In this document: positions 7,905-52,775 of the stretch, one piece after another
Layout: each line of letters starts with the position of its first letter
Numbering within the stretch: the first letter of the stretch is position 1
DNA from: a bacterium
Lineage (GTDB): Bacteria; Sysuimicrobiota; Sysuimicrobiia; Sysuimicrobiales; Segetimicrobiaceae
Assembly (NCBI GenBank): GCA_035945995.1
Contig: DASYZR010000023.1
Span: forward strand, 1-52,775
Length of the DNA: 52,775 nucleotides
Reading direction: 5' to 3'
Notes under the pieces: generated by a model
What the model was told of the DNA's origin: nothing
Seen by the model: only the letters and a program-made list of their open reading frames with translations
The model's database searches: none
Made by a program: the position numbers and the translations under genes

Positions 7905-7946
7905 GGGCTCGCCAAAGGGGGGTGCGGGGGCGCACACGGTACGCGA

Positions 7947-8160
7947 AGCGCCGGAACTCGCCGGCCGGGCGTCACGACACGCGGCGAGTTGACGAGGTAG
8001 GGGATCTCGAGCAGCGGAGCGGGGATGCACGATTCACGGATCCGGTCGGGCGTCGCGCTCCCATTCGGCGGGTGACCCTAGGTCTGGTCCGGACCTGTTT
8101 GAACGCCGCCAAAACCCGGAGGCGACTCGGGGGACAAAAGGCGTTCAGGACGCACACCTC
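7947..8160 (+). promoter_or_regulatory. glmS ribozyme (glucosamine-6-phosphate-activated self-cleaving riboswitch)
   Basis: The conserved cleavage context A|GCGCC is at 7947-7952, with cleavage expected between 7947 and 7948. AACTCGCCG (7955-7963) pairs with CGGCGAGTT (7982-7990) as P2, and runs into the invariant GTTGACGAGG (7988-7997). Further downstream TGAACGCC (8100-8107) pairs with GGCGTTCA (8140-8147) as P4, enclosing AAAACC, the core GGCGAC and ACAAAA, as in known glmS ribozymes. It sits ~175 nt before the glmS start. Known role: binding of GlcN6P triggers cleavage and mRNA decay, giving feedback control of hexosamine synthesis. The 3' boundary is approximate; the remaining leader to 8334 holds GC-rich hairpins and the GGAGG site. 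No gene lies in 7821-8334. Confidence 0.93.
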
Positions 8161-49344: not shown

Positions 49345-49938
49345 GTGAGTGCGCGGCGCCGGGCCGTCTTTCTCGACCGCGACGGTGTCGTGGTCCGCGA
49401 CGTGGACCATTTGACCTCGGCGTCGCAACTCGACATTCTTCCGGGTGTGCCGGAATCACTCCGCCGGTTGCGCGACGCGGGATGGGCTGTCGTGGTCGTG
49501 ACGAACCAGTCCGTGGTGGCGCGTGGGTGGGTGACGGAGGAGGGCCTGCGCGAGATTCATTCGGACCTCGAGGCGCGCCTGCGTGCGCGCGGAGCCGCAT
49601 TGGACGCGATCTATTACTGTCCGCACCATCCCGACGGCGCGGTGGCGGCCTATCGCGTCGCGTGCGACTGCCGGAAACCCCAACCCGGGCTGCTGCTCCG
49701 CGCCGCGGCCGACCTCGGGATCGATCTCGCCGCATCCGTGATGGTGGGCGACGCAGCCTCGGACATGGAAGCGGGCCGCCGGGCGGGGTGTCGCACGGCT
49801 CTGATCCGCTCCGCCTCCCCGGGGCGTATGCCTGTTTCACGCGATCCCGGAGAGGACCGCCCAGCGCCGGACTATGTGGCGGCCACCCTGGCGGATGCCG
49901 TGGAATGGATTTTGCATCTACCCGGTGAGTCGGCTTGA
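49345..49938 (+). CDS. HAD-family bisphosphate phosphatase (GmhB-like)
   Basis: This 197-residue HAD phosphatase has the nucleophile motif FLDRDGVV (Asp-x-Asp), TNQS and [10 protein letters not shown]. The zinc-binding cluster Cys-x-His-His ... Cys-x-Cys (CPHHPDG, CDCRKP) places it in the GmhB/HisB-N group, which dephosphorylates heptose or histidinol phosphates. Heptose synthesis partners are not in the window, so the substrate is unknown. The GTG at 49345 is the only suitable start. It may be cotranscribed with purH, 49 nt upstream. Confidence 0.85.
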
Positions 49939-49970: not shown

Positions 49971-49998
49971 TTGACTTTGTGCTGGGTCGTGATAAAAT
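49971..49998 (+). promoter_or_regulatory. Promoter of structured RNA A
   Basis: TTGACT (49971-49976) and TAAAAT (49993-49998) are 16 bp apart. Predicted start is near 50005. No coding start follows before the terminator at 50047-50079, so this promoter appears to drive a short untranslated RNA. Confidence 0.65.
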
Positions 49999-50004
49999 GG
50001 TGGT

Positions 50005-50079
50005 AGCAGAAGCCGACCAGGCGAGTCCAACGGGGCAATGCTGAGTGCCGATTCCGAAGGGGGTCGGCCTTAATTTTTT
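50005..50079 (+). ncRNA. Tandem structured RNA A (~75 nt, undescribed)
   Basis: Between its promoter and terminator this RNA has a closing stem AGCA/TGCT (50005-50008, 50039-50042) and a small hairpin GCC-GACCA-GGC (50012-50022). A conserved AGTCCA...GGGGC segment follows, then the terminator hairpin GCCGATTCC/GGGGTCGGC. RNA B at 50169 shares the loop, the AGTCCA segment and the terminator, but with different closing-stem bases. GCCGACC (50012-50018) is complementary to GGTCGGC (50062-50068) in the terminator's 3' arm, so an alternative antiterminator fold is possible. I do not recognise the class; it could be an sRNA or a riboswitch-like element. Confidence 0.55.
50047..50079 (+). terminator. 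Intrinsic terminator of RNA A
   Basis: GCCGATTCC pairs with GGGGTCGGC (two G-T pairs) around a GAAG loop, followed by CTTAATTTTTT. The sequence is near-identical to the terminator of RNA B at 50210. Confidence 0.8.
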
Positions 50080-50134
50080 GCGCGAAAAGCTGCGCCGGCG
50101 CGGGCGGGAAGGGCTCTTTGCCCGCCAAGTCGGT

Positions 50135-50162
50135 TTGACAGAGCGCCACCCGGTGGTATAAT
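50135..50162 (+). promoter_or_regulatory. Consensus promoter of RNA B
   Basis: TTGACA (50135-50140) and TATAAT (50157-50162) are both perfect consensus hexamers with a 16-bp spacer. It is the strongest-looking promoter in the window besides the rRNA promoters. Start is expected near 50169. Confidence 0.8.
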
Positions 50163-50168
50163 TCGCGT

Positions 50169-50240
50169 GACATTGCTGACCAGGCAAGATAGTCCAGGGG
50201 CGTGTCAGGAGCCGATTCCGAGAGGGGTCGGCTTTTTCTT
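50169..50240 (+). ncRNA. Tandem structured RNA B (~72 nt, undescribed), also in the 5' leader of the GNAT gene
   Basis: TGACA/TGTCA (50168-50172, 50203-50207) closes a domain holding the hairpin GCT-GACCA-GGC (50175-50185) and AGTCCA-GGGGC. A terminator with a GAGA loop follows. Compared with RNA A, the closing stem changes on both sides and still pairs; the hairpin changes C to T opposite G, keeping a wobble pair. GCTGACC (50175-50181) can pair with GGTCGGC (50226-50232) in the terminator, an antiterminator possibility. The GNAT gene begins 58 nt after the terminator, so B may be a cis-acting attenuator, an sRNA, or both. Confidence 0.55.
50210..50240 (+). terminator. Intrinsic terminator of RNA B
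   Basis: AGCCGATTCC (50210-50219) pairs with GGGGTCGGCT (50224-50233) around a GAGA (GNRA) loop, followed by TTTTTCTT. It stands between the consensus promoter and the GNAT gene, so the GNAT gene needs read-through or another promoter. Confidence 0.85.
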
Positions 50241-50297
50241 CTTGTGGCGCTCCGCCGATGCCGGCGGAGTCGGGACGCCCGGCGCCAAGGTGTGAGC

Positions 50298-50834
50298 GTG
50301 TACGAGATCCGCAGCGTTGCCCCGGAACAACTGGACGAGGACCTCGCGGCGTTTGTCGCGCTCCTGCAGGACGCCGTCGACGGCGGGGCGTCGGTGGGAT
50401 TCGTGCCGCCGCTCGACAAGGACGACGCCCGCCGGTACTGGGCCGGCGTGCGGGCCATGGTCGGCGCGGGTACTCGAATCTTGCTTGCGGCCGTGGACGA
50501 GGGCGAGATGTTGGGCTCCGTGCAACTCGACCTCGCGACGATGCCCAACGCGCGGCACCGCGCCGAGGTGATGAAGCTCATGGTGCACGGCGCCGCCCGC
50601 CGTCGCGGCATCGGCCGCGCGTTGATGCTGGCCCTCGAAGACGCGGCGCGCCGGGCGGACCGGCGGTTGCTGGTGCTCGACACGAGAGTGGGGGATCCCG
50701 CGGAGCAACTGTACCTTGCTCTGGGGTACGCGCGGGCCGGGGTGATCCCGCGGTATGCGCTGAGCGCGGCCGGGACGCTCGACGCGACCGTCTACATGTA
50801 CCGTGAACTGGCCGCTGACCGGCGGGACGGGTGA
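50298..50834 (+). CDS. GNAT-family N-acetyltransferase
   Basis: This ~178-residue acetyltransferase has the acetyl-CoA loop (R-x-x-G-x-G/A type) VHGAARRRGIGRALMLALE, the preceding beta strand HRAEVMKLMV, and the C-terminal LYLALGYARAGVIPRYAL. The N-terminal half (ILLAAVDEGEMLGSVQLDLAT) resembles acetyltransferases of antibiotics or small amines, but the substrate is unknown. GTG 50298 is 7 nt after AAGG; GTG 50292 is in frame but too close to that site. Its leader contains RNA B and its terminator. A membrane protein gene follows 36 bp downstream. Confidence 0.85.
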   Translation: MYEIRSVAPEQLDEDLAAFVALLQDAVDGGASVGFVPPLDKDDARRYWAGVRAMVGAGTRILLAAVDEGEMLGSVQLDLATMPNARHRAEVMKLMVHGAARRRGIGRALMLALEDAARRADRRLLVLDTRVGDPAEQLYLALGYARAGVIPRYALSAAGTLDATVYMYRELAADRRDG

Positions 50835-50870: not shown

Positions 50871-51500
50871 ATGAACGAGAGGGCGGCGCACCTTCGGGCG
50901 GGGATTCGGGTCGAATGGTTCACGGTCGGATGGATGCTCCTCGAATCGATCATCGGCATCGGCGCGGGGGTGGGGACGCGAAGCATCGCACTCACCGCGT
51001 TCGGTCTGGACAGCGTCGTCGAGCTCGTGTCCGGGACCGTCGTGCTGGCGAGACTGCGGGCGGAGAGCGGCGCCCCGAACCTGACGGCGGAACAGGTTGA
51101 GCGGATCGAGCGGCGCGCGTCCCGGATCGTCGGCTGGAGCTTGTTTGCCCTCGCGGCCTACGTCGTGATTCAGTCCGCGTACAATTTGCTGACGCACGCC
51201 GCCTCAGAGGCGTCGGCCGCCGGCGCCGCGCTCGCCGTCGCCGCGCTCATCGTGATGCCCGGCCTCGCGACCATCAAGCGGAAGCTTGCGTCGGCGCTCG
51301 ACAGCTCCGCCCTTCGCGGTGATGCCGCCGAGGCGGTGGTCTGCGCGTACATGGCGGCGACCCTGCTGGCGGGGTTGGTGCTTCGGATGGCGTTCGGCTG
51401 GTGGTGGGCCGACCCGGTGGCGGCGTTCGGCATCGTGTACTTCATCGTGCGCGAGGGGCGCGAAGCTCTTGAAGGAGAGGGTGCCGGCTCAGAGTCGTGA
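50871..51500 (+). CDS. Cation-efflux (CDF)-like integral membrane protein
   Basis: This 209-residue protein has about 5-6 membrane helices. TAFGLDSVVELVSG and the later DAAEAVVCAYMAATLLAGLVL and WWWADPVAAFGI have the layout of the transmembrane core of cation diffusion facilitators, but the usual metal-site His residues are missing and the cytoplasmic C-terminal domain is absent. It may transport something other than zinc. The ATG follows GAGG with 5-nt spacing. It is probably cotranscribed with the GNAT gene; its last 12 bp overlap the convergent DUF92 gene. Confidence 0.75.
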   Translation: MNERAAHLRAGIRVEWFTVGWMLLESIIGIGAGVGTRSIALTAFGLDSVVELVSGTVVLARLRAESGAPNLTAEQVERIERRASRIVGWSLFALAAYVVIQSAYNLLTHAASEASAAGAALAVAALIVMPGLATIKRKLASALDSSALRGDAAEAVVCAYMAATLLAGLVLRMAFGWWWADPVAAFGIVYFIVREGREALEGEGAGSES

Positions 51501-52235
51501 CGTGGTGACGTAGAGCATTACCGCGGCACCCGAAGCGGTGGCCGCGACGTTGACCATGTCGTTGTCGAGCCAGCGCCACCGGCCTTCGACCGTCGCGCCG
51601 AGGATGCTGTCGAGAAGGGAGCCGGTGATCCCCGCGACGGTGATCCATGCCGCCCACGCGAAGCGCGGGTGCGTGCCGCCCACGTCCCCGGCAGGCGGCG
51701 TCACGGGCAGGGAGGCGGCGACGGCGGCGATGAGCAACGCGCCGGCGACCGACGCGAGGGTTCCCGTCGGCGTGACGCCTCCCGATGCGCCCGGCGTGAC
51801 CGGCCGTCCGGTCGTGATCAGTCGCGGCCGCGTGCGGCTCCATCGGCCGAGTTCCGTCGCCCACGTGTCGGCGGTGGCGGCCGCGACGGCGCCGGCCGCC
51901 ACCCCGAAGCCCTGCGGCCATCCCGTCGCGGCGTAAAGCACGGCCGCCAGCGTGGCGATGCCGCCGTTCGCGGCGACCTGCTGCCAGCGGCGTCCTACGC
52001 GATCGTGGGAGTGGGGCGCATCGACGCCCGGCGGGTCCAGATGAGTCACGATCGAGGACGTGATGAAGAACACGCCGACCAGTGCGAGCCAATGCCATCC
52101 GGCGAGGACGAGCACTGTGCCGGTCAACGCGGCCGCCCAGGCGCCCGACTCGGTGAGCGCGCCGCGGCGGTGGGCGACGAAGGCGACGCCGGCGCTCAAG
52201 AATCCCCCGGCGATCACACGGATGACCCATTCCAC
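51489..52235 (-). CDS. DUF92 family integral membrane protein
   Basis: This 248-residue protein has about six membrane helices and the family motifs AAATADTWATELG and GGVTPTGTLASVAGALLIA. DUF92 includes plant VTE6, a phytyl-phosphate kinase, and many uncharacterised bacterial proteins, possibly prenyl phosphate kinases. The start is a GTG at 52235 giving MEWVIRVIAGG. It is convergent with the CDF-like gene and divergent from the rRNA promoters. No operon partner is visible. Confidence 0.85.
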   Translation of the reverse strand: MEWVIRVIAGGFLSAGVAFVAHRRGALTESGAWAAALTGTVLVLAGWHWLALVGVFFITSSIVTHLDPPGVDAPHSHDRVGRRWQQVAANGGIATLAAVLYAATGWPQGFGVAAGAVAAATADTWATELGRWSRTRPRLITTGRPVTPGASGGVTPTGTLASVAGALLIAAVAASLPVTPPAGDVGGTHPRFAWAAWITVAGITGSLLDSILGATVEGRWRWLDNDMVNVAATASGAAVMLYVTTSRL

Positions 52236-52638: not shown

Positions 52639-52775
52639 CCGATGGAGAGTTTGATCCTGGCTCAGGACGAACGCTGGCGGCGTGCCTCAAACATGCAAGT
52701 CGAGCGTGGCTTCATCCTCTCGCAAGAGAGGGTGAAGTCTAGCGGCGAACGGGTGAGTAACACGTGGGAAACCTG
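52639..52775 (+). rRNA. rrs: 16S ribosomal RNA, 5' end (partial)
   Basis: GAGAGTTTGATCCTGGCTCAG and GGACGAACGCTGGCGGCG are universal 16S 5' sequences, followed by ATGCAAGTCGAGCG and GGCGAACGGGTGAGTAACACGTG. By alignment with E. coli numbering, position 1 falls near 52639. The usual CCTAACACATGCAAG reads CCTCAAACATGCAAG here. The gene continues past the right edge. Confidence 0.97.

Follow-up and report, generated by a model that had tools for sequence, protein, structure and literature searches.

The window, by which we mean the whole stretch of 52,775 nucleotides that was analysed, carries two short promoter-RNA-terminator units in tandem on the forward strand (49971-50242). Upstream of the first, RNA A, lies a gene for a HAD-like phosphatase (49345-49938, + strand, Pfam PF13242), and the second, RNA B, is followed by a gene for a GNAT acetyltransferase (50298-50834, + strand, Pfam PF00583), an arrangement that recurs in two other genomes (G001 and G002). 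Both units converge on a gene for a DUF92 membrane protein (51489-52235, - strand, Pfam PF01940), which is a conserved neighbour. Beyond DUF92, both here and in G005 (L005), comes an rRNA operon, of which the window holds the 5′ end of the 16S rRNA gene (52639-52775). At Rfam gathering thresholds, the whole window yields only this rRNA start and a glmS riboswitch/ribozyme (RF00234, 63.6 bits) at 7936-8156.

The predicted promoter of RNA A (49971-49998, + strand) reads TTGACT-16-TAAAAT, agreeing with the sigma-70 consensus at 10 of 12 positions, and that of RNA B (50135-50162, + strand) reads TTGACA-16-TATAAT, agreeing at all 12; in both, a TG precedes the -10 element. The putative transcripts are about 74 nt each, with RNA A at 50005-50078 (+ strand), its start placed 7-8 nt past the -10, and RNA B at 50168-50242 (+ strand). 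Matches to the covariance model described below span 50001-50078 (84.9 bits) and 50164-50242 (76.3 bits). RNA A ends in an intrinsic terminator (50047-50078, + strand, hairpin 50047-50068) of the form GCCGATTCC-GAAG-GGGGTCGGC with a U-rich tail, and RNA B in a near-identical one (50209-50242, + strand, hairpin about 50209-50236), GCCGATTCC-GAGA-GGGGTCGGC, again with a U-rich tail. A scan of 1.6 kb returned exactly two sigma-70-type promoters, against 0.1 expected from shuffled sequence, and exactly two intrinsic terminators, one behind each promoter, against 0.8 in shuffles. These counts bear out the tandem units proposed by the first-pass annotation, and the blocks it had described as shared, GACCAGGC, AGTCCA..GGGGC and the terminators, are present.

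Homologues were sought by DNA comparison and then with a covariance model (R1), a search that the first-pass annotation had recommended. Twelve strong copies (59-85 bits) were obtained from nine of the 12 genomes of the same bacterial family, spread over four genera and keeping promoter, core, pairing of the closing stem P1 and terminator. The window's genus, with three genomes, has two copies per genome, and six other genomes have one apiece. Eleven of the copies went into building the model, which by construction raises their scores; the twelfth (G008, 58.8 bits) lay outside it. By sequence match, all 12 have a predicted sigma-70 promoter at the equivalent place and a predicted intrinsic terminator, (G/A)CCGA(U/C)UC... 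The terminator 5′ arm, CCGAUUC (in the 50209-50236 hairpin and its homologues), is conserved beyond what a terminator needs.

Outside the family, the signal falls away. The next-best match in the 43-genome phylum scores 23 bits, and the covariance model found no strong copy in the phylum's other 31 genomes or in about 340 genomes elsewhere. Across all 386 genomes, nothing further matched except sequences of 28-32 bits in other phyla, which proved to be ordinary terminators at gene ends that lack the core. A sequence model of the core alone gave no convincing copy in the phylum's other families, and its best two matches (20.0 and 18.6 bits) have neither promoter nor terminator. The 18.6-bit match is a core-like stretch, GCTGACCAGGCAGAGATCCAAAGGGG, that has an intergenic position in a different family of this phylum (L263, G017:C181:9432-9463) and is probably due to chance. 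When a loose DNA pattern was run against a collection of genome contigs, the model score was at most 21 bits among the 80 matches listed; viral contigs approached in the same way gave the same picture, and plasmids and phages gave no match. On these searches, the RNA family is so far found in one family of uncultured bacteria only. Three of the 12 genomes of that family have no copy, two of them being only 64-68% complete. In G003 and G011, other genes come after purH and there is no RNA copy; the RNA is therefore either dispensable or lost there.

The RNA has the same surroundings in most of the nine genomes: the pur operon (purH, often with the HAD gene) ends before it and the convergent DUF92 gene follows; this was confirmed on the purH and HAD side alone in G001, and in G004 and G009 the DUF92 side alone was checked. 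At the G001 locus (L017), a run of N, masked or unassembled, begins after about the first 50 GNAT codons. Where the neighbour in a single-copy genome was resolved, the RNA and DUF92 are convergent and no gene follows the RNA on its own strand. Because the next gene runs in the opposite direction, the term free-standing is right for RNA A and most copies, as the first-pass annotation had suggested for at least one copy, but it is less secure for copy B, which in each of its three genomes precedes GNAT by about 55-60 nt. No other promoter was seen between B and GNAT in these three genomes, and B, so placed, may have a role in cis. The duplication into A and B is confined to the window's genus; at one locus (L018, G002), an extra ~500 bases of protein-coding appearance separate the two copies. 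In several genomes of other families (L183, L193 and L194), purH and DUF92 converge and almost touch with no RNA between them. These empty sites mean that the RNA gene arose in this family or disappeared from the others, and gain is the simpler reading.

The closing stem P1 provides comparative evidence for structure. RNA A pairs UAGCA (50004-50008, + strand) with UGCUG (50039-50043, + strand), and RNA B pairs UGACAU (50168-50173, + strand) with GUGUCA (50202-50207, + strand). That these stems differ in letters and still pair had been pointed out from the two copies, and the same is true of the 10 further homologous copies: P1 is present in 12 of 12, its letters varying and its pairing kept, with the compensatory types AGCA/UGCU, (U)GACAU/GUGUC(A), AACAU/AUGUU and UAGCG/CGCUA. 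Summed over the copies, P1 strands paired with their own partners reach -80.5 kcal/mol, whereas strands exchanged between copies average -54.5, and none of 20000 swap permutations equalled the true pairing, a test in which relatedness is only partly corrected for. With six representatives only, the true pairing ranks 6th of 720. Automatic pair counts agree on P1, with the A-type copies' P1 standing out of register in the alignment. Judged by this covariation, the pairing of P1 is under selection and its letters are free. The suggestion of selection on RNA structure thus stands for P1 and the terminator, which covariation backs, and not for the inner hairpin, where the C-to-T change opposite G that had been read as compensatory is actually a one-sided wobble change.

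Enclosed by P1 is a core that is nearly invariant in the 12 copies, located at 50012-50036 (+ strand, GCCGACCAGGCGAGUCCAACGGGGC) in RNA A and at 50175-50201 (+ strand, GCUGACCAGGC-AAGATA-GUCCAGGGGC) in RNA B. Its consensus, GCYGACCAGGC-(1-8 nt)-GUCCA-(0-2 nt)-GGGGC, hardly changes across four genera, and the core is better conserved than the terminator loop. Two candidate inner folds can be drawn, one with two hairpins (GCY-GACCA-GGC and GUCC-..-GGGC) and the other a single extended hairpin with a GA bulge. The two-hairpin fold is favoured by about 0-3 kcal/mol in four A-type copies and two others, and the extended hairpin by 2.5-4 kcal/mol in G005 and two of the three B copies, the remaining copies being nearly tied. 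The core is so invariant that the choice between them lies beyond the reach of covariation. Taken by itself, neither core fold beats shuffled sequence in stability (z about 0 to -0.7), and the case for structure is therefore comparative and not energetic.

No known RNA class accounts for the locus. Rfam 15 returned no family match here or at the homologous loci at E up to 5 or 1, the sole match among the latter being 16S rRNA at the edge of one locus, and the earlier statement that no known class could be recognised thus holds even at E up to 5. A limited literature search gave nothing on this lineage. A housekeeping RNA in unusual dress, either SRP RNA or 6S RNA, would suit the strong promoters, and the ACCAGG..GUCC of the core recalls the sequence of SRP RNA helix 8. 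However, 11 of the 12 family genomes have an ordinary SRP RNA (RF00169) at another place, and eight have 6S RNA (RF00013) at another place; with separate genes for both and no Rfam match at this locus at E up to 5, we rejected these identities and give the housekeeping reading a negligible chance. A short encoded peptide was rejected as well. In 11 of 12 copies, GGGGC is followed at 0-2 nt by an ATG or GTG, with a frame x-D-S common to 10, but the frames end differently between copies, that of G006 is another one and G008 lacks a start codon. The start codon in that position is a consequence of P1 pairing, and the GGGG is too near it to serve as a ribosome site. An antisense relation to DUF92 was also set aside, as the RNA remains conserved in the window despite a distance of 1.2 kb from that gene.

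Regarding helper proteins, CsrA was found in none of the 12 family genomes, which speaks against a CsrA-sequestering RNA. Hfq-like domains occur in some of them (G003, G004, G006, G007 and G009), where, in contrast to ordinary Hfq, they are embedded in long open frames (367-495 aa), and Hfq was not found in G000, G001 and G005, all of which carry the RNA. With CsrA absent and Hfq doubtful, the common helpers of sRNAs are not to be assumed. The units do have, as far as their letters tell, the marks of a free-standing sRNA: each has its own promoter and its own intrinsic terminator, and RNA A and the single copies with a resolved neighbour are followed by no co-transcribed gene, copy B being the one that precedes a gene (GNAT). 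A riboswitch would be expected to have a controlled gene downstream in most of its occurrences, and copy B alone does.

Collectively, these observations point to a real, new and narrowly distributed sRNA family. We consider it reasonably probable that RNA A and RNA B are paralogous genes of this uncatalogued, family-restricted family of free-standing sRNAs, and that its members act in trans via the core. Each unit would be transcribed from its own strong sigma-70 promoter and end at its own intrinsic terminator, both predicted from sequence, and the RNA would fold so that P1 holds up the nearly invariant core with the terminator hairpin next to it. The free letters of the stem and the fixed letters of the core suggest that the core is the working part. 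The RNA most likely acts as a discrete molecule, its core being bound by a protein, which we slightly prefer, or paired with another RNA. In the window's genus, the gene was duplicated, and copy B, just upstream of GNAT, may have gained a role for that gene.

Pairing with another RNA could take the form of antisense regulation of mRNAs through GACCAGG or GUCCA..GGGG, a possible but clearly less probable account. Size, own promoter, intrinsic terminator and U-rich tail all match classical base-pairing sRNAs, the seeds of which are typically conserved, and the Hfq-like domains in some family genomes would fit; those domains, however, sit in the long open frames described above, and the RNA carriers G000, G001 and G005 yielded no Hfq. 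Further, in the family's genomes, neither near matches nor complementary sites to the 18-letter core exceed the reversed pattern, so that a pairing target using that stretch gains no support, although a real seed may be shorter. An attenuator or orphan riboswitch, with the core as aptamer and the terminator as expression platform, would explain why a compact conserved domain stands immediately before a terminator, and for copy B the short distance to GNAT in all three genomes and the lack of another visible promoter between them favour control of that gene. In its support, the core GCYGACC resembles the terminator 5′ arm CCGAUUC, so that both can pair with the terminator 3′ arm, GGUCGGC; for the core, this holds in most copies. 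However, about half of the copies have a core-terminator pairing that is broken or cut down to 5-6 pairs, forbidding the terminator does not bring the pairing about, and only in G006 does the minimum-energy fold contain it. The single copies, moreover, precede a convergent gene and have nothing to control in cis. The attenuator reading is possible for copy B only and unlikely as an account of the RNAs. It is also rather improbable that the core constitutes a new motif, an aptamer or a protein-binding one, acting in trans as part of a free RNA, with its duplicate captured as the GNAT leader in one genus; if this were true, the passage from a trans-acting sRNA to a cis-regulator would have been caught.

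Very little probability falls to a boundary element, that is, a strong and possibly two-way terminator between the pur operon and DUF92 whose transcript is functionless. The fixed place between convergent genes and the conserved terminator are what it would predict, but such an element would need neither a promoter nor a conserved core, let alone one conserved more than the terminator loop. Further, the RNA gene persists where GNAT and cation-efflux genes lie between it and DUF92, and the duplication took the promoter along.

With the sRNA family as we read it, an uncultured lineage contributes a well-delimited RNA that has a promoter, a core, a covarying stem and a terminator and that matches nothing in Rfam. 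Empty sites in sister families and a duplication within one genus place its likely gain and copying, offering a small, tractable example of the birth of new sRNA genes. Until its expression and binding are demonstrated, the family carries modest practical weight.

Among known systems, bacterial small SRP RNA (RF00169) shares a short run of letters, ACCAGG..GUCC, and differs in that its covariance model does not match here and in that these genomes have a separate SRP RNA gene. Orphan riboswitch or attenuator leaders share the compact conserved domain directly before an intrinsic terminator and, in copy B, the gene that follows; unlike them, most copies have no same-strand downstream gene, and no conserved switching fold was found. 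Terminated trans-acting bacterial sRNAs share more than one trait with this RNA, namely a sigma-70 promoter, a length of 70-80 nt, an intrinsic terminator with a U-rich tail, restriction to a lineage and tandem paralogues. Set against them, the RNA came with no target and no dependable Hfq, and it is further distinguished by its core, which is enclosed by a stem and hardly varies along more than 20 nt.
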